Assembly (NCBI GenBank): GCA_023264995.1
Contig: JAHFUR010000003.1
Coordinates: 62,001-126,000 of the forward strand
Length of the DNA: 64,000 nucleotides
Origin: Acidimicrobiia bacterium
GTDB lineage: Bacteria > Actinomycetota > Acidimicrobiia > Acidimicrobiales > AC-14
Direction: 5' to 3'
How positions within the stretch are numbered: position 1 is the stretch's first letter; the number at the start of each line of letters is the position of its first letter. Under the pieces are notes generated by a model that worked only from the letters and a program-made list of their open reading frames with translations, did no database searches and was not told the origin of the DNA. Shown here in pieces: positions 39,329-57,687 of the stretch. The translations under genes were made by a program, and so were the position numbers.

Positions 39329-41096
39329 GTACTCCACTCCCCGACGAACCGCCCTGCTCACCATCCTTGCCGCCGCAGTGGGGCTGGCCGGTGGGGGAAC
39401 GGCGTGGATCCTCCTGCACCTCATCGCTTTCATCACCAACGCCGCGGTTTTCGGCCGCCTCGGGTTCCACCCGCCGTCCTTTGCCGATCTCCATCCCAGC
39501 CCGAGAATCGTCGTCGTGGCCGTGCTCGGAGGGTTGCTCATCAGCCTTCTCGCCAAGTGGTCGCCCATCATCCGAGGCCACGGGATACCGGAGGCCATGG
39601 AGGCGGTGCTCACGAAGCAGAGCCGGATCGCACCTCGGACGGCACTGGCCAAGCCGCTTTCGGCCGCGATCGCCATCGGCACCTCGGCACCGTTCGGTGC
39701 GGAGGGGCCGATCATCGTGACCGGCGGGGCGATCGGGTCGTTGCTGGGCCAAGTCGTGCGGGTCTCACCCGCGGAGCGCAAGATTCTGCTGGCCTGTGGG
39801 GCGGCCGCCGGCATGTCGGCCACATTCGGGGCGCCACTCGCCGCTGTGATCCTGGCCATCGAGTTGCTCCTCTTCGAGTTCTCGGCCCGCGCCCTGGTCC
39901 CGCTGATCGTCGCATCGAGCATCGCCGGGGGCGTCCACAACGCACTCTTCGGGTCCGGTCCCCTGTTCTCGGTGCCGGTCCATGACTACGGCGGTCTCGG
40001 TGGGCTCCCATCGTTCGTGCTCCTCGGCCTGGCCTGCGGCCTTCTCGCCGTGGTCATCAGTCAAGGGCTCTTCGTGGTGGAGCGGCTCTACCGCCGTTTG
40101 CCCATCGGCGAGTTCTGGCATCCCATGATTGGCGCGGTGCTCTTCGCCTCGGTCGGTTTGATCGCGCCACGAGCCCTGGGCGTCGGCTACGACGCCATCG
40201 GTGACGTCCTGAACAGCCGACTCGCGCTCGGAACGATCGCGGTTCTGGGCCTGATCAAGCTCGTTTCATGGTGGCTCGCCCTGGGCTCGGGGACCTCGGG
40301 CGGCACGCTGGCGCCCATCCTCCTTATCAGCGCCGCGTTCGGAACGCTCTTCGGCACCGCCGTCAACCATCTCCTGCCGGGGGTCGACATTTCTCCCGGC
40401 GCGTTCGCCCTCGTGGCCATGGCCGCCACGTTCGGGGGGTCAACGCGAGCGACGTTCACGGCGATCGTGTTCGTGTTCGAGCTGACCCGTGACTACCAGG
40501 TCGTCATTCCGGTCATGCTCGCCACCGTGCTGGCCGACCTTGTCTTCAGTGCCCTCAGCGAACACAGCATCATGACCGAGAAGCTCAGCCACCGGGGTCT
40601 GCGAATCGGACGCCACTATGGAGTCGATCCCCTGACGACCTATCTCGTCAGTCAGGTCATGACATCAGCCGTGGCGACCATCTCGGCCACACTGACTGCG
40701 GGCGAGGCACGAGAGAAGTTCGTCAAGGGAGGCCACGGCGCCTACCCGATTCTGGACGGTGACGGCGTTATGGTCGGCATCCTGACTCGGGGCGACCTGC
40801 TGGACGCCGGCGTTGATGCGGGGGATTCCGTCCTCGAGCACGCGAGCCGCGACGTCGTCTCGGTCGGGCCCCGCGACAACGCGATGGCTGCGCTGGATGT
40901 CATGCTCGATGAAGGCGTCGAGCATGTTCCGGTGATCGCCGATGGCCGTCTCGTGGGCATTTGCACCCGAACGGATCTTCTCAAGGTCCGTCAAGAGCAG
41001 CGGACGTCCGAGGCACCTCAGGAACCCAGCCGCATCGCTCCAGGCCCTCCTCTTCGTCCCCGTCACCGTCGCGGGACTCGGGCGCCGATCAGATGA
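39327..41096 (+). CDS. CLC-type chloride channel/antiporter with CBS domains
   Basis: A 589-residue CLC protein. The ion-pathway motifs GTSAPFGAEGP, GSGTSGGTLAP and the GVDISPGAFALVAMAA region are present. The Glu in GAEGP is the gating glutamate. Two CBS domains (about 445-565) follow the membrane part and may bind nucleotides. ATG 39327 is used; no ribosome site precedes it, so it may be leaderless. The gene overlaps the convergent alternative oxidase gene by eight bases at its 3' end. Confidence 0.88.
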   Translation: MYSTPRRTALLTILAAAVGLAGGGTAWILLHLIAFITNAAVFGRLGFHPPSFADLHPSPRIVVVAVLGGLLISLLAKWSPIIRGHGIPEAMEAVLTKQSRIAPRTALAKPLSAAIAIGTSAPFGAEGPIIVTGGAIGSLLGQVVRVSPAERKILLACGAAAGMSATFGAPLAAVILAIELLLFEFSARALVPLIVASSIAGGVHNALFGSGPLFSVPVHDYGGLGGLPSFVLLGLACGLLAVVISQGLFVVERLYRRLPIGEFWHPMIGAVLFASVGLIAPRALGVGYDAIGDVLNSRLALGTIAVLGLIKLVSWWLALGSGTSGGTLAPILLISAAFGTLFGTAVNHLLPGVDISPGAFALVAMAATFGGSTRATFTAIVFVFELTRDYQVVIPVMLATVLADLVFSALSEHSIMTEKLSHRGLRIGRHYGVDPLTTYLVSQVMTSAVATISATLTAGEAREKFVKGGHGAYPILDGDGVMVGILTRGDLLDAGVDAGDSVLEHASRDVVSVGPRDNAMAALDVMLDEGVEHVPVIADGRLVGICTRTDLLKVRQEQRTSEAPQEPSRIAPGPPLRPRHRRGTRAPIR

Positions 41097-41697
41097 ACCG
41101 CGGCTCGTCCATGCGGTCCAGGCTCTCCTGCTTGTGGACCCGCTCGTCGTGGCCGATCTGGCGGAACAGGTCGGCCACCGACTCGTAGTGGCCGTACTCA
41201 TCGACAAAGAGACCGTCGTAGGGCCGGTTCTCCAGCTCGGGGGTTTCGTGGACGAACAGTGCGTACTCGTGCTCGGCGTGATCCTCGAAGTCGGCGTTCA
41301 GCCCGTAGCTCCACCGCGGGTTCAAGGCGTAGAGAAGCCATGAGAGCTGGTAGTAGGCGAAGGCCAGTGCCTGCGGAACAACGCGGTAGCGGAGGAAGCT
41401 CTCGCGTTTGCCCGACGCCTCCACCAACTCTTCGAGGATCAGCAGGTGCCACTGTTCGTTGTCCTGCTGTTCCCAGCTCTCGTGGACCCGCTCGAAGATG
41501 CGGCGAGCGAATGTCGGGCGCGAGTACCGATGAGTCACGGCGACGTAGGCGACGTTCTCCCACGCCTGGTAGGGCACGCGGGCGACCACCTCGAGCACCT
41601 TGAACTTCGAGAGGGTACGGGAACGTCTGTACAGGAGGTCCAAGAGCGTGAAGAGCACACGGGCGGCGGGACCATAGCGGCGCCTGGGCGATGCCAT
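41089..41697 (-). CDS. Alternative oxidase (plastid terminal oxidase-like) diiron quinol oxidase
   Basis: A 202-residue protein resembling the AOX/PTOX family. All six expected diiron ligands can be placed: Glu36 (LEVVARVP), Glu81 and His84 (NEQWHLLI), Glu139 (FEDHAEHEY), Glu185 and His188 (HDERVHKQ). The segments LSWLLYALNPRWSYG and ALFVHETPEL also match PTOX. It would oxidise quinol and reduce oxygen to water without proton pumping. A longer in-frame start (GTG 41799) would place a CRP-type palindrome in the coding region, so ATG 41697 is preferred. Confidence 0.8.
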   Translation of the reverse strand: MASPRRRYGPAARVLFTLLDLLYRRSRTLSKFKVLEVVARVPYQAWENVAYVAVTHRYSRPTFARRIFERVHESWEQQDNEQWHLLILEELVEASGKRESFLRYRVVPQALAFAYYQLSWLLYALNPRWSYGLNADFEDHAEHEYALFVHETPELENRPYDGLFVDEYGHYESVADLFRQIGHDERVHKQESLDRMDEPRFI

Positions 41698-41784
41698 GGT
41701 CACCGCCTGCTCCGCCTTGAGGTCGGGTGCGGTCAGCTTCGGGGGCGGTCCGGTCGGTGACGAGCGGGCCTCTTCTGCGCCATT

Positions 41785-41800
41785 TGTGAACCTGTTCACA
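41785..41800. promoter_or_regulatory. CRP/FNR-type palindrome TGTGA-N6-TCACA
   Basis: TGTGAACCTGTTCACA is a seven-base inverted repeat with a two-base spacer and fits the CRP consensus exactly. It lies 88 bases upstream of the preferred alternative oxidase start. Confidence 0.55.
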
Positions 41801-41808
41801 AGCCGAGC

Positions 41809-41997
41809 CTACTGCGGAGCGACGACACGCGATTCGGGTCGCACTGATGCTGAGAGCGTGCCTGTATCGCTCCTGAAATGACGGCGCTCGTGTTTCCACT
41901 TCCACTGCTTCGTACGCAGAATTGCGGTGCTCCTCCTCCTCATGAGCCTGTAGTCGGTCACCGGCTGTGGGTCCTCGAACGGCCTCCGGGCCATCAT
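41809..41997 (-). CDS. Small basic hypothetical protein
   Basis: A possible 62-residue, Arg-rich protein starting MMARRPFEDP. AGGAGA is well spaced before ATG 41997. No family is recognised. It lies between the hydrogenase protease-phosphatase gene and the alternative oxidase gene on the same strand, and could instead be chance. Confidence 0.3.
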   Translation of the reverse strand: MMARRPFEDPQPVTDYRLMRRRSTAILRTKQWKWKHERRHFRSDTGTLSASVRPESRVVAPQ

Positions 41998-42030: not shown

Positions 42031-43497
42031 CTACGAGGAGCGCGGTGGGGTCCGCTTTGGACTAGGAGTAGCGAGAGCGGTGAGACGCGGCTTGTATGAC
42101 GGTGGCACGTGAGCGTTTCTCGAGGGCCCGTCCAGTCGCAGCCCCACGAGGCACATGTCGTCGTCCCGCCGAAGGCCGGTGGTGCAGGCGCTCAGGATGA
42201 AATCACAGAGGTCGTCCAACTGCTGGGGACCATCGGTGACGGCCATTCGGAGGCGCTCCAGCCCGACGGTCCGGGACGTTGCCCGACTTTCGACCAACCC
42301 GTCCGTGAACAGCATCAGAGTCGACCCCCGATCGAGGCGTAGGGTCGCCTCCGGACGGTCGACCCCGACCATTGCGCCGACGGCGTCCGAACGGGCGGTG
42401 TCGATGAAGCGGGCATGCGACGCCGCCCGGTCCAGCACCAATGGAGGACAGCCTCCGGCGTTGGAGAAGCGGATCTCGCCGGTGTCGGGATGCAGCGTCA
42501 AGTAGAGAACGCGAGCCAGTTGACCCAGCCCGGTCGTCTCCGCGAGCCGATCGAGGTGTTGCATCACGCGGACCGGGGAGTCGCCGTCGATGGCGGCGTA
42601 GGCCCGGGCCGCAGCCCGCAGGTCGCTCATGATCGGCGCCACTTCGACGCCACGGCCGGCGACGTTGCCGATCACGATTCCCAGACCGCCGCTCCCGAGG
42701 GGAACAGCGTCGACCCAGTCACCACCGCAGCCGACGAAAACGCCCCACGGGTGAACCCGGCCGGCGAGCGTCACCCCATGGGCGTCTGACCACCCCCTGT
42801 CCAGCAACGCGGGCGACCGGCCGACCTCATGGCGTGCCTGGGCATGGTCCCGGGCGTAGTCGATCAGCTCGGCCATGTCCTCGCTCGGTTCCGCTGAGCG
42901 TGGAGCGCCGGCGGTGGCGGGGGTATCGGAAACCTCGACCAGCGAGGCGTCCGCAGCTTCGAAGTGACGAGAGCCGCCGGCGCTTCCGGCGATACCGACG
43001 AGCTCCTCGCGAACCATGTCCAGGATCGGGTCGAAGCACTCGGCCAAGAGGTCGCTGAAGCCGATGCCGAACTCAGCCTCGGCGGGCTCGATCTCGATGA
43101 TGACGGTGTCGACCGGCAGGCCCCCCCAGTGACGGGCCATGGCCAGGGTGTGGTCGAGGTCAACCATGCCCATCGCGGACTCTTCAAGGCTGCGATGGAC
43201 GTCAGCGGGCGCGGGCGGCGTGAGGTCCACGCGGTAGCGGCGCAGCGTCGCCGGCGGATCGAACTCCCGGGGCACTGCCCCCAGGAGGACGACCTTGGCC
43301 GGTCGCAACTCCTGGAGGCGGTGCAGGACGAGCGGGGCGGAGCAGGAAAGGTCCTCGACTACCACCCCGTCGGGCCAGTCCAGATGCTGGAGGTAGTCGA
43401 TGACCTGTCGCCCGAAATCCAAGTCCCGCATGCCCGGTCGCCCGAAGCCGCCGACGAGGGCGCGGCAGGCGGTGGTCTTCCCGTCGGTGGCGGTCAT
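42031..43497 (-). CDS. Hydrogenase maturation protease-like domain fused to SpoIIE/PP2C-type phosphatase domain
   Basis: A 488-residue fusion. Residues about 10-168 resemble hydrogenase maturation endopeptidases (HybD/HycI, M52): LVGGFGRPGMRDLDFG, VVVEDLS, the His-bearing DLDHTLAMARHWGGLPVD and IIEIEPAEAEFGIGFSD. The usual acidic residue of the central DA motif appears as Gly (LLGAVP). Residues about 255-455 are a PP2C-like SpoIIE domain: GGDWVDAVPL (Asp260), GNVAGRG (277-283; the normal metal Asp is Asn), NAGGCPP, FTDGLVES (Asp399) and DDDMCLVGL. It starts four bases inside the end of hydrogenase copy 1, so it is coupled to it. Role proposed: large-subunit processing linked to Ser/Thr-phosphatase signalling. 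The altered residues leave both activities open. Confidence 0.75.
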   Translation of the reverse strand: MTATDGKTTACRALVGGFGRPGMRDLDFGRQVIDYLQHLDWPDGVVVEDLSCSAPLVLHRLQELRPAKVVLLGAVPREFDPPATLRRYRVDLTPPAPADVHRSLEESAMGMVDLDHTLAMARHWGGLPVDTVIIEIEPAEAEFGIGFSDLLAECFDPILDMVREELVGIAGSAGGSRHFEAADASLVEVSDTPATAGAPRSAEPSEDMAELIDYARDHAQARHEVGRSPALLDRGWSDAHGVTLAGRVHPWGVFVGCGGDWVDAVPLGSGGLGIVIGNVAGRGVEVAPIMSDLRAAARAYAAIDGDSPVRVMQHLDRLAETTGLGQLARVLYLTLHPDTGEIRFSNAGGCPPLVLDRAASHARFIDTARSDAVGAMVGVDRPEATLRLDRGSTLMLFTDGLVESRATSRTVGLERLRMAVTDGPQQLDDLCDFILSACTTGLRRDDDMCLVGLRLDGPSRNAHVPPSYKPRLTALATPSPKRTPPRSS

Positions 43498-45374
43498 TCC
43501 AGGGTGCAGCCGCAGGAGTTGATCTCCCGGGTGATGATGCCCTTGCCGGTGTCCATGTGGGTGGTGCAGGGCATGCAGGGGTCGAAGCTGCGGATGGCCC
43601 GCAGGACGTCGATGCCCTTGATCTGGTCGTCGGGGACCGACTCCAGGATGGGGGTGTCGACGATGGCCTGCTCGTAGGGGCCGAGGCCACCGAAGGGGTC
43701 GGTGGGGGAGGCGTTGAGCGTGGAGGGGGTGTTGATCTGGTAGTTCACGATCTTGCCCTTGTCGATGATCATGTGGTGGGTCAGGTAGCCGCGGCTCGCC
43801 TCCCAGAACCCGACTGCCACCCGCTCGTCACGGGGGATCTTGAACGGGGTGTGGACCCTGGTCTCGCCCTTGCGCCAGTACTCGAACGCCTTGAGCAGGC
43901 AGTTCATGCCGATGGTGGCGGTGAAGGCCATGGCGTAGGCCCGGCCCCGGTTGCGCTCGAGAGCGTTCAGCGTCCTTGGCAGCGGCCAGAACAGCTCGGT
44001 CTCGGGCAGCAGGTTGCGGGGCAGGACCAGACGCAACCCGTCGCCGGTGGGCTCACAGAAGGGGTTCTCGGCGTAGTCGCCCCGCAGGGCCGTGCCCCAC
44101 AGCTGGCCGTAGGCGCCGGTCTCGACGGTCTGGCGGTCCCAGCGGGGGGCGGTGGACCAGGTGTACTTCTCCTTGAAGTTCGTGCCGGCGGGCTTGGGCA
44201 GGGTGGTCTTGTTCCACGCGTGGTAGGGCGACAGCGGGTTGCCCAGGGCGTCGGTCTGGTAGCGCTGGGGGCCGGTCTTGGTCCAGTCGTCGTAGAAGGA
44301 GTGCTCGATGAACTCTTCCATGCCGATGTTGATGTCGGTCAGGTTGGTGGTAATCAGCTTGCCCTCGAGGATCACGGCGGGGGTGGCCCATCGAGCGTTG
44401 CCCCATTGGTTGATGTTGGAGTACGTGGCGTCGTAGACCTCGGAGTCGTCCCAGATGCCGGTCTGGATAAGGCTGGTGGGGCGGGCCCCTACCTGCTCAT
44501 ACGCCGGGTTGGCCTCCAGGAAGAAGTCGCACAGGTCGTCCCAGATCTTGCAGATGACCTTGCACCAGTCGATGATCTTGCCCAGCTGGGTGTAGTACTC
44601 GTTGAACGTCGAGGTGGTCACCGTCGTCGACATGCCACCGGGGACGATGGTGCTCGGGTGCGGGAACTTGCCGAACATCAACATGCACAGGATGCGCCCG
44701 ACCCGCGTCCACTCCAGCGCCTCCAGGTAGATCTTGCCGGTGAGGGGGTTGAGCGCGTCCATGAGATCCTTCATGGTCGTGTAGCCATGGAGATCCCCGT
44801 TCGCGGCCAGGGTCTTCTCGGCCCGGGTCACCAGCTCAGGGTTGGTCACGCTGACCAGGGCGGTGGAGTAGTCGGGGCCGGCCAGCAGTCCGAGGTGCAG
44901 GGGGCGGTCATAGAACATCTCACCCACCTCGCCCAGGTTGCGCACCTCCACGCCCAGTGGCGGGGGGCAGATGCCGAAGGCCTGCTCGATGCAGAGCGCC
45001 GACACCGACGCATGGACACCGCCACAGACCCCGCAGGCGCGCGACGAGATGTCGATGGCGTCGCGGGGGTCGCGGCCCTCGAGGATGACCTCATAGCCCC
45101 GGAAGAGCATGGCCCGAGCGTGGGCGTCGACGGCCCGGCGGTTCTCCAGGTCGAGCACGGTGTGCACGGCCAGGGCGCCGGCGACGCGGGTCATGGGGTC
45201 GATGTTCCAGTCCCGGAGGCGGGGCGGGGCGGCCAGCTGCGCCCCCGGGCCTCCCTCGCGGCGCACGAAGCCCTTGGGCTCGGCCACGGTCACCGAGTAG
45301 GGATCGGCGACACCCGACTTGAGCCGGGCCTTACCGGAGCTGTCGAACTCGACGGGCAGGTTCTTGAAGCACAC
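43494..45374 (-). CDS. hhyL: [NiFe]-hydrogenase large subunit, actinobacterial (group 1h/5) type, copy 1
   Basis: A 626-residue large subunit. The N-terminal nickel motif is Arg112-Ala-Cys114-Gly-Val-Cys117, then His121; the C-terminal motif is DPC600-x2-C603-TTH606, followed by a 20-residue tail ending SCGCTLE that a maturation protease would remove. Length and sequence fit the high-affinity, oxygen-tolerant H2-uptake enzymes of actinomycetes. GTG 45374 has AGAGGAG upstream; its counterpart in copy 2 starts at the same residue. No small-subunit gene is adjacent. It is divergent from an XRE/cupin regulator and overlaps the protease-phosphatase gene. Confidence 0.9.
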   Translation of the reverse strand: MCFKNLPVEFDSSGKARLKSGVADPYSVTVAEPKGFVRREGGPGAQLAAPPRLRDWNIDPMTRVAGALAVHTVLDLENRRAVDAHARAMLFRGYEVILEGRDPRDAIDISSRACGVCGGVHASVSALCIEQAFGICPPPLGVEVRNLGEVGEMFYDRPLHLGLLAGPDYSTALVSVTNPELVTRAEKTLAANGDLHGYTTMKDLMDALNPLTGKIYLEALEWTRVGRILCMLMFGKFPHPSTIVPGGMSTTVTTSTFNEYYTQLGKIIDWCKVICKIWDDLCDFFLEANPAYEQVGARPTSLIQTGIWDDSEVYDATYSNINQWGNARWATPAVILEGKLITTNLTDINIGMEEFIEHSFYDDWTKTGPQRYQTDALGNPLSPYHAWNKTTLPKPAGTNFKEKYTWSTAPRWDRQTVETGAYGQLWGTALRGDYAENPFCEPTGDGLRLVLPRNLLPETELFWPLPRTLNALERNRGRAYAMAFTATIGMNCLLKAFEYWRKGETRVHTPFKIPRDERVAVGFWEASRGYLTHHMIIDKGKIVNYQINTPSTLNASPTDPFGGLGPYEQAIVDTPILESVPDDQIKGIDVLRAIRSFDPCMPCTTHMDTGKGIITREINSCGCTLE

Positions 45375-45458
45375 GGGACGCTCCTCTGATGCGTGGAAGA
45401 GGTGAGACTCTCTGCCGCCCACCCTCGCAGACCGCTGCTGCATATGGCTAGAAGCATA

Positions 45459-45470
45459 AGCAGTGCTGCT
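45459..45470. promoter_or_regulatory. Inverted repeat AGCAG-TG-CTGCT in the hydrogenase copy 1/regulator gap
   Basis: This twelve-base imperfect palindrome lies in the 128-base region between the divergent hydrogenase and regulator genes, with further GCTGCT copies nearby. It is a candidate operator for the XRE-type regulator. Confidence 0.35.
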
Positions 45471-45502
45471 ATTGTGGGCAGCTCGCTCTGGGAGGAGACG
45501 AC

Positions 45503-46675
45503 ATGGGAGCCATGAATGACCGAGTGTCGAGCGGAGTGCCCGATGTCGACGCACTCCTCGGAGGCCTCCTCCTCGGGGACAACGTGGTCTGGGTTCTGGA
45601 GAACGCCGAGGTGGCGCGCCGCCTCGAGGACGCCATGCTGGGTGAAGCGGCAGCCCGAGGCGAGGGCTGCTTGTACGTGAGTGTCAGTGCCCAACAGGCT
45701 CAGCTACGGGCCCGCCTTGGTGCCGGCGTCACCGTTCTTGACGCCCGACCGCGAGGCCCCTACGGCGATGCTGCGATGCTGGAGACGACGATCATCGAGG
45801 CAGCCCGCAGTCACCCGCCGGGTTACGTCGTCGTTGATGGTCTGGCCCAGTTCGCCCGCCGATGGGGCGCGGCCAAGGCGATCGCCTTCTTCAGCCGCGT
45901 GTGCCCGAGACTGTTCGATCTCGGGGCGGTGGCCTACTGGCGAGCGCCCCGGAGCGCGCTCGGCCCGTCGTTCATCGACCAGGTCACGAGCGTGACCCAA
46001 TGCGTGCTCGAGATCAGCGACGGCCATTTACGGGTCGTGAAGGCCGAGGGCCGTCCCTCGTCGGTCCAGGCCCGGCTGCTGCGCTTGGAGGTGAGCGACG
46101 GGACGGTACGCCTCCATGACGAACGGGCTCTCGGTCGCCTCGGGCAGGGATTGGAGCGCGTCCGACGGGAACGCAACCTCAGCCAGACCGATCTGGCCAG
46201 CCTGGCCGGGGTCACCCAGAGTGCGATCTCCCAGGCCGAGGCGGGCCGACGAGGCCTTTCGCTGGACACCCTCCTGCTGCTTTCAGAGCGCCTGAACATT
46301 GGTATCGACGATCTCCTGGCCTCCGCACCCCCTGGGGGCCACGTGCTTGCTCGGAGGCCCAGGACCCTCGTCGATCCTCTGACCTCCCTCCTCGATGATC
46401 CTCAGGTGGGCTCGCGCGTCTACCTCGTCCGGCTGGGACCGGGAGAGGCCGGAGCGCCCGACTTCCTCCACAAAGGAGTGGAGCTCGTCCTTGTGGCCTC
46501 CGGACTTGTTCAGATCACGATCGGCACAGACACCCCAGTCATGCGGGCCGGCGATGCTGCACTGGCCACGACCGTGGCGGTGTCGGGATGGCGGAACCTG
46601 ATCAACACCCCCGCACTCCTCTTTTGGGTCCTGCGCGACGAACCTCAAGGACGTCCGCGAAGGGCCCGTCTGTAG
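45503..46675 (+). CDS. Regulator with degenerate KaiC/RecA-like domain, XRE HTH and cupin
   Basis: A 390-residue three-domain protein. About 1-190 follows the KaiC/RecA pattern (RVSSGVPDVDALLGG start, VVVDGLAQFARR Walker B-like strand), but the Walker A loop is gone: GLLLGDNVVWVLEN has no GKT. About 215-272 is an XRE-type HTH (RRERNLSQTDLASLAGVTQS, AISQAEAGRRGLSL). About 303-378 is a cupin sensor. ATG 45503 follows GGGAGGAGACG. Being divergent from hydrogenase copy 1, it is its likely regulator. The N-terminal domain probably senses or dimerises rather than hydrolyses ATP. Confidence 0.75.
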   Translation: MGAMNDRVSSGVPDVDALLGGLLLGDNVVWVLENAEVARRLEDAMLGEAAARGEGCLYVSVSAQQAQLRARLGAGVTVLDARPRGPYGDAAMLETTIIEAARSHPPGYVVVDGLAQFARRWGAAKAIAFFSRVCPRLFDLGAVAYWRAPRSALGPSFIDQVTSVTQCVLEISDGHLRVVKAEGRPSSVQARLLRLEVSDGTVRLHDERALGRLGQGLERVRRERNLSQTDLASLAGVTQSAISQAEAGRRGLSLDTLLLLSERLNIGIDDLLASAPPGGHVLARRPRTLVDPLTSLLDDPQVGSRVYLVRLGPGEAGAPDFLHKGVELVLVASGLVQITIGTDTPVMRAGDAALATTVAVSGWRNLINTPALLFWVLRDEPQGRPRRARL

Positions 46676-53462: not shown

Positions 53463-55343
53463 ATGTGCTTCAAAAACCTGCCCATTGAGTTCGATGGAAG
53501 TGGCAAGGCGCGCCTGAAGGAGGGGTTCAAGGACCCCTACTCCGTCACCATCGGCGAGCCCAAGGGCTACGTCCGCCGCAAGGAGGGCCCCGGCGCCCAG
53601 CTGGCCGCCCCGCCCCGCCTGCGGGACTGGAACATCGACCCCATGACCCGGGTGGCCGGCGCCCTCGCCGTGCACACTGTGTTGGACCTGGAGAACCGCC
53701 GGGCCGTGGATGCCCACTCCCGGGCCATGCTCTTCCGGGGCTATGAGGTCATCCTCGAGGGCCGTGACCCCCGCGACGCCATCGACATCTCCAGCCGGGC
53801 CTGCGGGGTGTGCGGCGGCGTCCACGCGTCGTGCAGTTCACTGTGCATCGAGATGGCCTTCGGCGTTTGCCCCCCGCCCCTGGGCGTCGAGGTCCGCAAC
53901 CTGGGCGAGGTGGCCGAGATGTTCTACGACCGCCCCCTGCACCTCGGTCTCCTCGCCGGCCCCGACTACTCCACCGCCCTGGTGAGCGTCACCAACCCCG
54001 AGCTGGTGACCCGGGCCGAGAAGACCCTGTCGCCCCACGGCGACATCCACGGCTACACCACCATCAAAGACATCATGGACGCCCTCAACCCCCTGACCGG
54101 GAAGATCTACCTGGAGGCCCTGGAGTGGACCCGGGTGGGGCGCATCATGTGCATGCTCATGTTTGGCAAGTACCCGCACCCCTCCACCCTGGTGCCCGGC
54201 GGTGTCTCCACCACCATCACCACCTCCAGCTTCAACGAGTACTACGGCCAGCTGGGCAAGATCCTCGACTGGTGCAAGGTGATCTGTCGCATCTGGGACG
54301 ACCTGTGCGACTTCTTCCTGGAGGCCAACCCGGCGTACGAGCAGGTAGGGGCCCGCCCCACCAGCCTCATCCAGAGCGGCATCTGGGACAACTCAGAGTA
54401 CTACGACGCCACCTACGCCAACTGCGACGCGTGGGGAGACCGCCGGTGGTCGAGCCCGTCAGTTGTGATCGAGGGGAAGCTGGTGACGACCAAGCTGACC
54501 GACATCAGCATGGGCATGGAGGAGTTCATCGAGCACTCCTTCTACGACGACTGGACCAAGACCGGCCCCCAGCGCTACAAGACCGACCCCCTGGGCAACC
54601 CGCTGTCGCCCTACCACGCGTGGAACAAGACGACGCTGCCCAAGCCGACGGGGACCAACTTCAAGGAGCGCTACACCTGGGACACCGCCCCCCGCTGGGA
54701 CCGCCAGGTGGTCGAGACCGGCGCATACGGTCAGCTGTGGGGCACCGCCCTACGCGGCGACTACACCGACAACCCCTTCTGCGAGCCCACGGGCGACGGC
54801 CTTCGCTTGCTGGTGCCGCGCCACGCCCTGCCCGAAACGGAGCTGTTCTGGCCCCTGCCCCGCACCCTCAACGCCCTGGAGCGCAACCGGGCCCGGGCCT
54901 ACTCGATGGCCTTCACCGCCACCATCGGTATGAATTGCCTGCTCAAGGCCTTCGAGTACTGGCGCAAGGGAGAGACCAGGGTCCACACCCCCTTCAAGAT
55001 CCCCCGCGACGAGCGCATCTCCGTCGGTTTCTGGGAGGCGGGCCGGGGCTACCTGGTGCACAGCATGATCATCGACAAGGGCAAGATCGTGAACTACCAG
55101 ATCAACACCCCCTCCACCATCAACGCCTCCCCCACCGACCCCTTCGGTGGCCTCGGCCCCTACGAGCAGGCCATCGTGGACACCCCCATCCTGGAGTCGG
55201 TCCCCGACGACCAGATCAAGGGCATCGACGTCCTGCGGGCCATCCGCAGCTTCGACCCCTGCATGCCCTGCACCACCCACATGGACACCGGCAAGGGCAT
55301 CATCACCAGGGAGATCAACTCGTGCGGCTGCACCCTCGAGTAG
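53463..55343 (+). CDS. hhyL: [NiFe]-hydrogenase large subunit, actinobacterial (group 1h/5) type, copy 2
   Basis: A 626-residue large subunit, the same length as copy 1 and nearly identical to it, with the same RACGVCGGVH and DPCMPCTTH nickel motifs and the same 20-residue tail. Even third codon positions agree over long stretches: near the 3' end only about five bases differ in 200. Differences cluster in a few surface-like segments (for example around residues 318-345). ATG 53463 is used; ATG 53436 would add nine residues. It is in inverted orientation to copy 1, is followed after 40 bases by a sigma factor, and has no adjacent small subunit or protease. Confidence 0.9.
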   Translation: MCFKNLPIEFDGSGKARLKEGFKDPYSVTIGEPKGYVRRKEGPGAQLAAPPRLRDWNIDPMTRVAGALAVHTVLDLENRRAVDAHSRAMLFRGYEVILEGRDPRDAIDISSRACGVCGGVHASCSSLCIEMAFGVCPPPLGVEVRNLGEVAEMFYDRPLHLGLLAGPDYSTALVSVTNPELVTRAEKTLSPHGDIHGYTTIKDIMDALNPLTGKIYLEALEWTRVGRIMCMLMFGKYPHPSTLVPGGVSTTITTSSFNEYYGQLGKILDWCKVICRIWDDLCDFFLEANPAYEQVGARPTSLIQSGIWDNSEYYDATYANCDAWGDRRWSSPSVVIEGKLVTTKLTDISMGMEEFIEHSFYDDWTKTGPQRYKTDPLGNPLSPYHAWNKTTLPKPTGTNFKERYTWDTAPRWDRQVVETGAYGQLWGTALRGDYTDNPFCEPTGDGLRLLVPRHALPETELFWPLPRTLNALERNRARAYSMAFTATIGMNCLLKAFEYWRKGETRVHTPFKIPRDERISVGFWEAGRGYLVHSMIIDKGKIVNYQINTPSTINASPTDPFGGLGPYEQAIVDTPILESVPDDQIKGIDVLRAIRSFDPCMPCTTHMDTGKGIITREINSCGCTLE

Positions 55344-55383
55344 AAGCGTCTTCGCCCGGCACAGACGGTCAGCGGAGAATGCC

Positions 55384-56313
55384 GTGAGTGCCACAACGGT
55401 ATCCCGGACGACATCTACTGAGTCGGACACGCTGGGGATCTACCTGGTGGACATCGGGCGCCACCCGCGGCTCTCGGCCGCCGACGAACGCCGGCTTGGC
55501 GAGCTCATCGAACAGGGGCGCCAGGCCCGTCTTGAGCTGGACGGCGGGGACCTACTCACGGAGCTGCGGAGCGAAGAGCTCGCGCAGATAACAGTGGAGG
55601 CAGCGGAGGCGACCCGGACCTTCGTCACCTCCAACCTTCGGCTGGTCGTGTCCCTGGCCAGGCGCTACGAGTCCTCCGGCCAACCGCTCCTCGACCTCAT
55701 CCAGGAAGGGAACATAGGCCTGCTACGGGCCGTCGCCGGTTTCGACCATCGTCGCGGGTTCCGGTTTTCCACCTATGCCGCATGGCCCATTCGCCAGGCG
55801 ATCGCGCGGGGAATCGCCAATACGGGAAGGCTGATTCGACTTCCCGTCCGCTCCGGTGAGCTTGTCGCTCGCGTCCGGCTGACCCAGCGCGCAGTCGACG
55901 CTACAGGCGCCGAGCGCCCCACGATTGACGAGATGGCCCGACAGCTCGCTACGAGCCCCCATCGGTTGAGGGAGGTACTTGCCTGCGCGTCGGACCCCGT
56001 GTCCCTCTCTGAGCCGATCGGCGATGACGATACGGAGGTCGGCGACCTGATCGAGGACACCTCCGCCGTCTCCCCCTTGGAGCAGGCGGTGCTGTCGGAG
56101 GAACTTCAGGGGATGGCCAAGGCCCTGGCCATGCTGGAGGAGCCAGAGTCTCGCGTCTTGTGCCTGCGATTCGGTCTTGATGACGACGATCCTGCGACCA
56201 TCGCCGAGATTGCAAGGCGCCTGGAACTAAGCAGCGCGGCTACTCGGAGCATCCAGGTGCGGGCCATCTCCAAGCTTCGCCGGTCAATGAGAGAACTGGA
56301 GTATGCGCCATGA
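55384..56313 (+). CDS. Sigma-70 family (group 2-like) sigma factor, first
   Basis: A 309-residue sigma factor with regions 1.2 (LGIYLVDIGRHPRLSAADER), 2 (VTSNLRLVVSLARRY, LLDLIQEGNIGLLRAV, FRFSTYAAWPIRQAI), 3 and 4 (LEEPESRVLCLRFGL). It differs from primary sigma factors in AAWPIRQ in place of TWWIRQ, and its last helix-turn-helix is divergent, so an alternative promoter is expected. GTG 55384 lies 40 bases after hydrogenase copy 2, suggesting co-transcription. Its stop overlaps the next gene. Confidence 0.87.
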   Translation: MSATTVSRTTSTESDTLGIYLVDIGRHPRLSAADERRLGELIEQGRQARLELDGGDLLTELRSEELAQITVEAAEATRTFVTSNLRLVVSLARRYESSGQPLLDLIQEGNIGLLRAVAGFDHRRGFRFSTYAAWPIRQAIARGIANTGRLIRLPVRSGELVARVRLTQRAVDATGAERPTIDEMARQLATSPHRLREVLACASDPVSLSEPIGDDDTEVGDLIEDTSAVSPLEQAVLSEELQGMAKALAMLEEPESRVLCLRFGLDDDDPATIAEIARRLELSSAATRSIQVRAISKLRRSMRELEYAP

Positions 56314-56630
56314 CCCTTCTCCACCCTGTGGATTCCGCAGCGGCGACTCGGCCATTGGAGCGAGAGCAGGTGCCGCTCCCCCACTTGGAGATCACCCGCC
56401 CGGACGAGGCGTCGTCCCCGGCAGGCCTCGGCCTGCAGAGGCGGGCGATCCGATGCGGCTCCATCGGCTTCCTCCTGACCATGGTCGCCGTGACCGCGGC
56501 GGTCGCGGCCTACGGAGGCGGCGTGGCGTCGATCGGGGCGGGGGTGATGGTCGGGGGCTTCGATGGATTTCCGTTCGGTGCCATGCTCGGCATCATGACC
56601 TATTTCTTGCGTCATCCCGATATCCGCTGA
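56310..56630 (+). CDS. Small two-span membrane protein
   Basis: A 106-residue protein with a soluble N-terminal 45 residues and two predicted spans at about 52-72 and 77-98, rich in Gly and Ala. Family not recognised. ATG 56310 overlaps the sigma factor stop (ATGA), so the two are translationally coupled; it might hold the sigma factor at the membrane (inference). Confidence 0.65.
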   Translation: MTLLHPVDSAAATRPLEREQVPLPHLEITRPDEASSPAGLGLQRRAIRCGSIGFLLTMVAVTAAVAAYGGGVASIGAGVMVGGFDGFPFGAMLGIMTYFLRHPDIR

Positions 56631-56698
56631 GAGCGACGCCCCTCGTCGGCTCGAACAAGATCATCCCGGTTGAGCTGGAACCAAAGCCTTCAAATCCC

Positions 56699-56710
56699 GG
56701 AACCGGTTCC
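56699..56710. promoter_or_regulatory. Perfect 12-base palindrome GGAACCGGTTCC
   Basis: A perfect palindrome 48 bases upstream of the second sigma factor start, in the only gap of this gene set. Candidate operator. Confidence 0.45.
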
Positions 56711-56757
56711 CCGACGGCTTTCACTCGGGCGAACATCGCGAGGAGTCGTCTTCGAAC

Positions 56758-57687
56758 ATGTCCACCAACCAAGGAAAAGGAGACCACGACCTCCTTTTCC
56801 TATACCTCACTGATATCCGTCGGTATCCTCTGCTTTGCAAGCAGGACGAGCAGCGGCTGGGGGCCCAAATCGAGCAAGGCACCCACGCTGCTGCGGACCT
56901 GCAGGACGGATCCCCCGCTTCCCGTGCTGAGCGTCAACGATTGGAAGCACTAGTTGAGGAGGGACAGCGGGCGAAGCGCCGGCTTGTGCAGGGCAATCTC
57001 CGGCTCGTCGTCTCAGTGGCCAAGCACTATCAAGTGTCCGGAGCGCCGCTTCTCGATCTGATCCAAGACGGCAATCTCGGACTGTTGCATGCGGTGGAGC
57101 GTTTCGACTACCGGAAGGGTTTCAAGTTCTCGACCTATGCCACCTGGTGGATTCGCCAGGCGATCGGGCGGGGCCTCAGTGAGAGCAGTCGTACCATCCG
57201 CCTGTCCTTGGACACGGCAACCCGGGTCCGTAAGGTTGCAAGTGCCGCAGAGCGCCTACACCCCATGCTCGGCCGACCGCCCACCGTCGCTGAGATCGCC
57301 GCCGACCAGGAGCTGCGCGTCGATCAGGTCGTGGAGGCCCTCCTCTTCGGCGACACACCGCTGTCGCTGTCCCAGGCACTGGAGGACGACGGAGTTGCGG
57401 TACTCGGCGACACCGTCGAAAACGGCTCAGCCGATCCCGCCGACCAGGCCGTCGTCACTCTGTTGGCCGACGAGATCATGACGCTGCTGGCTCCACTGCA
57501 TGACCGCGAGCGCCGAATTCTGTGGCTTCGCTTCGGCTTGGACCGAGGCGAGCCGAGGACGCTTGAAGACGTAGGAGAAGAGCTGCACCTAACCAGGGAA
57601 CGCATTCGCCAGATTGAATCCAGGGCACTGTCAAAGCTCCGGCATCCCTCGGTGCGCGGAGACGCCCGACGACTGCTTCTTGGATGA
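56758..57687 (+). CDS. Sigma-70 family (RpoD/SigA-like group 2) sigma factor, second
   Basis: A 309-residue sigma factor with the classical motifs LYLTDIRRYPLL (1.2), GNLRLVVSVAKHY, LLDLIQDGNLGLLHAVERFD, FKFSTYATWWIRQAI (2.4), and LTRERIRQIESRALSKLRHP (4.2). These last residues match primary-type -35 recognition, so it probably reads promoters close to the housekeeping consensus. ATG 56758 has AAGGAAAAGGAG inside the start region rather than before it. The same length as the first sigma suggests a tandem pair that has diverged. Confidence 0.9.
   Translation: MSTNQGKGDHDLLFLYLTDIRRYPLLCKQDEQRLGAQIEQGTHAAADLQDGSPASRAERQRLEALVEEGQRAKRRLVQGNLRLVVSVAKHYQVSGAPLLDLIQDGNLGLLHAVERFDYRKGFKFSTYATWWIRQAIGRGLSESSRTIRLSLDTATRVRKVASAAERLHPMLGRPPTVAEIAADQELRVDQVVEALLFGDTPLSLSQALEDDGVAVLGDTVENGSADPADQAVVTLLADEIMTLLAPLHDRERRILWLRFGLDRGEPRTLEDVGEELHLTRERIRQIESRALSKLRHPSVRGDARRLLLG

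Follow-up and report, generated by a model that had tools for sequence, protein, structure and literature searches.

A predicted Rex-repressed alternative oxidase of a third AOX/PTOX clade in an Acidimicrobiia bacterium

What enzyme is encoded by the open reading frame at positions 41089–41799 (minus strand, 236 residues), and which regulator reads the palindrome at its upstream end? The frame lies in the window, a 64,000-nucleotide stretch of the genome of an Acidimicrobiia bacterium referred to here as G000, and its product is probably an NADH-responsive menaquinol oxidase of a third clade of the alternative oxidase (AOX)/PTOX superfamily, with a gene predicted to be repressed by Rex.

The frame is, judged from its sequence, a genuine gene for an AOX/PTOX-superfamily diiron oxidase. 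It matches the Pfam AOX family (PF01786) at 1.6e-9, above the gathering cut-off, with only a weak match to the COQ7 family (0.013, below the cut-off), and an NCBIfam search of the protein gave no match at 0.001. As the first-pass annotation had proposed, all six diiron ligands can be placed: E70, E115, H118, E172, E219 and H222 (four Glu, two His) are invariant in 56/56 aligned sequences, comprising the window protein and 55 of 69 non-redundant relatives, as are Y179 and D218. A conserved histidine position of helix 2, which we take to be that of TAO H138 and PTOX H151, falls on Y85 in an ungapped alignment and on H90 in a MAFFT alignment, the latter with a five-residue insertion.

An AlphaFold (AF2) model built from the 56-sequence alignment has a mean pLDDT of 92.6. 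The top Foldseek matches of the model are chains of T. brucei AOX (5e-5, TMq of 0.68), on which VIA-align places 203 residues with a Z-score of 20.8 and an r.m.s.d. of 2.8, the runners-up being nigerythrin (Z-score of 12.4) and COQ7 (Z-score of 11.9). The two proteins share the fold and the same six ligand types at about 17% sequence identity; a sequence search of PDB chains with the window protein returned only a ribosomal protein, matched by chance, and a search of PDB chains for PTOX returned no match. Lack of an AOX-type fold had been named at the outset as fatal to the assignment; the model supports such a diiron quinol-oxidase fold, with T. brucei AOX well ahead of the next match. A second copy (AOX2), 82% identical to the window copy (AOX1), lies elsewhere in G000, on a different contig (C43:12523–13017), and about 4 kb from it on that contig is a COX1 gene (L121:406–2493, plus strand).

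Overlapping the start codon of AOX1 is a 16-base palindrome (41785–41800), the sole such site in the window at three or fewer mismatches on both its strands, against 0.12 expected. The first-pass annotation had correctly described it as exact, but had placed it 88 bases upstream of the start, whereas it overlaps the start codon GTG 41799. The 16-mer is the core of an 18-base unit, TTGTGAACAGGTTCACAA, at 41784–41801 on the minus strand (G000:C52:103784–103801), and this unit is a perfect match to TTGTGAANNNNTTCACAA, the consensus applied to Rex operators in S. avermitilis (PMC5355995); we therefore refer to it here as a predicted Rex operator (ROP).

Scanning the whole of G000 at two or fewer mismatches to this consensus yields six sites, compared with one for the reversed pattern used as a control. 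Two of these precede a WhiB gene (0 and 1 mismatch), and the others precede AOX1 (0), AOX2 (1), a NuoF-like gene (2) and an HAD-type gene (2), so that the AOX sites are two of the four best in the genome; the site before the HAD-type gene may be a chance occurrence. A further site, with three mismatches, is located 19 bases before rex, of which G000 has one gene (NCBIfam Rex equivalog, 336 bits against a cut-off of 226) with, as in Streptomyces, a glutamyl-tRNA reductase gene nearby. Among 17 rex loci, 11 have a ROP at three or fewer mismatches immediately upstream of the conserved Rex domain, from which, rather than from the exact rex start, the scan was measured, compared with 0.05 per control pass.

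The same targets recur in related genomes. At one or no mismatch, a ROP precedes the WhiB gene in eight of ten genomes of the family (G000, G001, G002 and G005–G009) and AOX in G000 (twice), G005 and G006, with other sites in G003 (two), G002 (C70) and G007 (C272); G004 alone of the ten has none at this threshold. The site at the NuoF-like gene recurs in G001 and G002. A Rex-like operator is common to the divergent CBS-domain and NuoF-like genes (L120:2303–4190) of G000, G001 and G002.

In S. avermitilis, Rex binding is reported from EMSA, ChIP and footprinting, wblE, rex and cydA1 are among the reported targets, and the footprint at cydA1 extends from −3 to +25 relative to the transcription start site (PMC5355995). 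The system described here resembles the Streptomyces Rex regulon (cydA1B1CD, rex–hem, wblE and nuo) in its motif, in the location of rex near hemA, in having wblE as a target and in an operator over the start region, where the geometry of the cydA1 footprint is the same as that of the AOX operator. It differs in the oxidase under the operator, which is AOX here and cytochrome bd in Streptomyces.

The palindrome had been read in the first-pass annotation as a CRP-type site, and a CRP/FNR-family regulator, by which AOX would answer to cAMP, O2 or NO instead of NADH, is unlikely to be what binds it. The AOX operator does contain the exact CRP core TGTGAN6TCACA, and a wblE target alone is not decisive, as whiB1, the wblE orthologue, is a target of CRP in M. 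tuberculosis and mycobacteria. However, of the five exact occurrences of this core in G000, four are at the WhiB gene (wblE), AOX1, AOX2 and the NuoF-like gene, all ROP targets, and the fifth is on contig C3, so that G000 shows no distinct CRP regulon built on this consensus. The outer TT/AA and inner A/T positions of the extended AOX motif also agree with the ROP, and the motif stands before rex itself. The longer motif, the other genes that it precedes and the presence of rex favour, at the level of sequence, a Rex operator over a CRP site, and from these computed features we infer binding by Rex.

The operator position depends on where translation starts. The ATG at 41697 preferred earlier is an unlikely start, with conserved residues and an ordered helix upstream of it. 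Residues 16–34 (TGPPPKL...LKAEQ), counted from GTG 41799, are largely kept between the two AOX copies, L27 and T34 are near-invariant among the 56 aligned sequences, and residues 24–36 form an ordered helix in the model. ATG 41697, which is residue 35 in this numbering, was rejected, as starting there cuts the helix and leaves most of it, together with the TGPPPKL...LKAEQ stretch, upstream. Two other in-frame starts are left, GTG 41799 and the GTG codon of residue 33, of which only the former keeps the conserved stretch; given the conservation and helical order of the residues upstream of ATG 41697, GTG 41799 is most likely the translation start.

Before GTG 41799 no Shine–Dalgarno-like sequence is evident by eye, and six bases before it is a candidate −10 box, TAGGCT (41806–41811, minus strand, coordinates read from the sequence). 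A TAnnnT motif ends 6–7 bases before the GTG in four of five operator-bearing AOX genes (by eye; locus L013 is without the box) and at the same distance before 4 of 2,291 GTGs in the window, although the motif was picked after the sequences had been seen and the genes are related, so that a nominal probability overstates the case. As the operator overlaps the GTG and the TAnnnT box lies six bases before it, the AOX message may be leaderless, starting at or near GTG 41799, and the site may be a repressing one.

To what extent the operator is conserved was assessed in 94 AOX loci, over at most 300 bases preceding the conserved core (nine bases only for L020). At two or fewer mismatches, seven rows have a ROP; these correspond to five distinct genes, as the contigs of L015 and L016, by their equal lengths, seem to be those of L012 and L013. 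Every one of these sites is at the start codon, with the GTG in the left arm of the operator in all five genes, and the operator of L013 has two mismatches. An Omnitrophota locus (L031) has a Rex-like site with three mismatches about 53 bases upstream of that core, and the best sites of the remaining scanned rows have four to eight. Codon 5 is ACA in all five operator-bearing genes, and beyond codon 6 only 2 of 32 Thr codons are ACA; this constancy at a codon that is rare further on suggests selection on the DNA and not on the protein.

The tree groups the five genes together; the fork as it is drawn has support of 93/92, and the group reaches 99/99 with labelled rows only. Two AOX genes of the same family (the second copy of G006 and that of G007) are without a ROP and lie outside this group, and the operator as a trait of the entire AOX clade was rejected, being confined to one subclade. 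G005 has a perfect ROP at AOX yet no rex match, in a genome that is 85% complete.

Alternative oxidases had been described in the first-pass annotation as uncommon in high-GC actinomycete-like bacteria, and this is borne out across the phylum, with a match in 4 of 396 evenly drawn genomes; among near relatives they are commoner (12/99). By pattern scanning of species genomes, 125 relatives were confirmed, the best 80 of which are labelled in their records as Actinomycetota (43), Omnitrophota (15), Elusimicrobiota (10), Myxococcota (5), Nitrospirota (3), Rokubacteria (2), Bacteriovoracaceae (1) and Deltaproteobacteria (1), as counted by eye; most of the records are metagenome bins, and individual labels may be incorrect.

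In a tree of 42 rows, made without plant sequences, 33 family rows hand-picked from the 94 loci form their own clade (99/99), six PTOX rows form another (89/85), and the family clade is also apart from three proteobacterial AOX rows; owing to long branches, its position between PTOX and AOX is uncertain. The protein thus sits in a separate third clade, and the PTOX affiliation given to it earlier does not hold in the strict sense. The closest annotated sequences outside the clade are cyanobacterial and cyanophage PTOX (26–37% identity), and cyanobacterial or cyanophage PTOX/AOX genes were also the sole tblastn matches in phage and plasmid collections. Common to AOX and all aligned PTOX rows are the LE, ARVPY, NExxH and ExxHAxxxY motifs, with DExxH shared with the cyanobacterial ones; unlike PTOX, AOX here carries additional residues within helix 2 and following NExxH, and it is without the insert that precedes the last ligand helix in the cyanobacterial rows. 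From proteobacterial and mitochondrial AOX the protein differs in clade, as regards the proteobacterial sequences, and probably in the host quinone, which by analogy would be menaquinone and not ubiquinone.

A 2025 survey reports AOX in Pseudomonadota only and PTOX in Cyanobacteriota only (PMC7618691). With a third clade that spans seven other phyla by record label, counts and inferred origins of O2-reducing enzymes may be incomplete. In the titles and abstract openings of the literature searched there is no report of a third AOX clade in Actinomycetota, nor of work joining AOX with a Rex regulator, the term matches there concerning plants and fungi.

An alternative reading is that the third-clade protein is an AOX-fold diiron hydroxylase or O2-scavenging protein with COQ7-like activity and not a respiratory oxidase. 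Consistent with this are the sub-threshold COQ7 match and the presence of homologues in lineages such as Omnitrophota and Elusimicrobiota, but the fold and length are closer to AOX than to COQ7 (Z-scores of 20.8 and 11.9), Y179 and the DExxH motif are retained, and no neighbour is common to many of 80 loci, in which nothing beyond AOX and its overlapping frames, judged as such, was widespread and one cluster covered 14 loci. The gene seems to stand alone, as AOX and PTOX genes do, and we think a hydroxylase or scavenger improbable, giving it slightly less credence than a CRP-type regulator; a quinol oxidase is the reading retained below.

Known substrates of the AOX/PTOX superfamily are ubiquinol and plastoquinol, and oxidation of menaquinol would widen this range. 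As Acidimicrobiia are reported to hold menaquinones (MK9-H6/H8, mostly made by the Men pathway; PMC13386864), menaquinol is, by analogy, the likely electron donor of AOX. No match to cydA (PF01654) was found in G000, which is 97.95% complete, nor in any of the ten family genomes; in the wider set it was matched in 26 of 99. Three COX1 genes are present in G000, one of them on the AOX2 contig. Two broader relationships were considered and not borne out: AOX and cydA as mutual replacements across the order, as two of the 12 AOX genomes (G015 and G079) also carry cydA, compared with 26 of 99 overall, and Rex control of cydA in the order, with no ROP at three or fewer mismatches in 30 cydA loci.

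The physiological role that we infer is that of an overflow valve triggered by NADH. Rex, the sensor of the NADH/NAD+ ratio, would sit on the 18-base operator over the starts of transcription and translation, the leaderless mRNA beginning at or next to GTG 41799, and would thereby repress the gene. A rise in NADH/NAD+ under O2 limitation or on blockage of the cytochrome chain would release Rex, and the AOX then made would oxidize menaquinol and reduce O2 to water with no conservation of energy, easing the reducing pressure on the quinone pool. In G000, with its lack of a cydA match, AOX would take over the part played by cytochrome bd in the Streptomyces Rex regulon. Predicted Rex control would tie a non-pumping oxidase directly, and testably, to NADH/NAD+. 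More tentatively, and at somewhat short of even confidence, the third clade as a whole may consist of menaquinol:O2 alternative oxidases of menaquinone-containing bacteria, placed in one Acidimicrobiales family under Rex, by an operator over a leaderless start, in the role of the Streptomyces cytochrome bd.

The first-pass annotation had coupled AOX to the NiFe hydrogenase large subunit gene nearby (43494–45554, minus strand; PF00374, 1.1e-62; judged to be outside the AOX unit) as a bypass from H2-derived quinol to O2, which we rejected as very improbable: the two genes share a strand and are separated by about 1.7 kb that hold a single SpoIIE phosphatase gene, but there is no hydrogenase match beside AOX at the other loci searched (tblastn), no ROP at two or fewer mismatches at the hydrogenase and no small subunit among the neighbouring frames tested, and in G000 a small subunit was found only on contig C16, beside its own large subunit. 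The hydrogenase gene in the window overlaps the downstream SpoIIE-type phosphatase gene by four bases, and its product shares about 41% identity with the C16 large subunit. Elsewhere in the window, at 55147–57687, two sigma-70-type sigma factor genes lie side by side.
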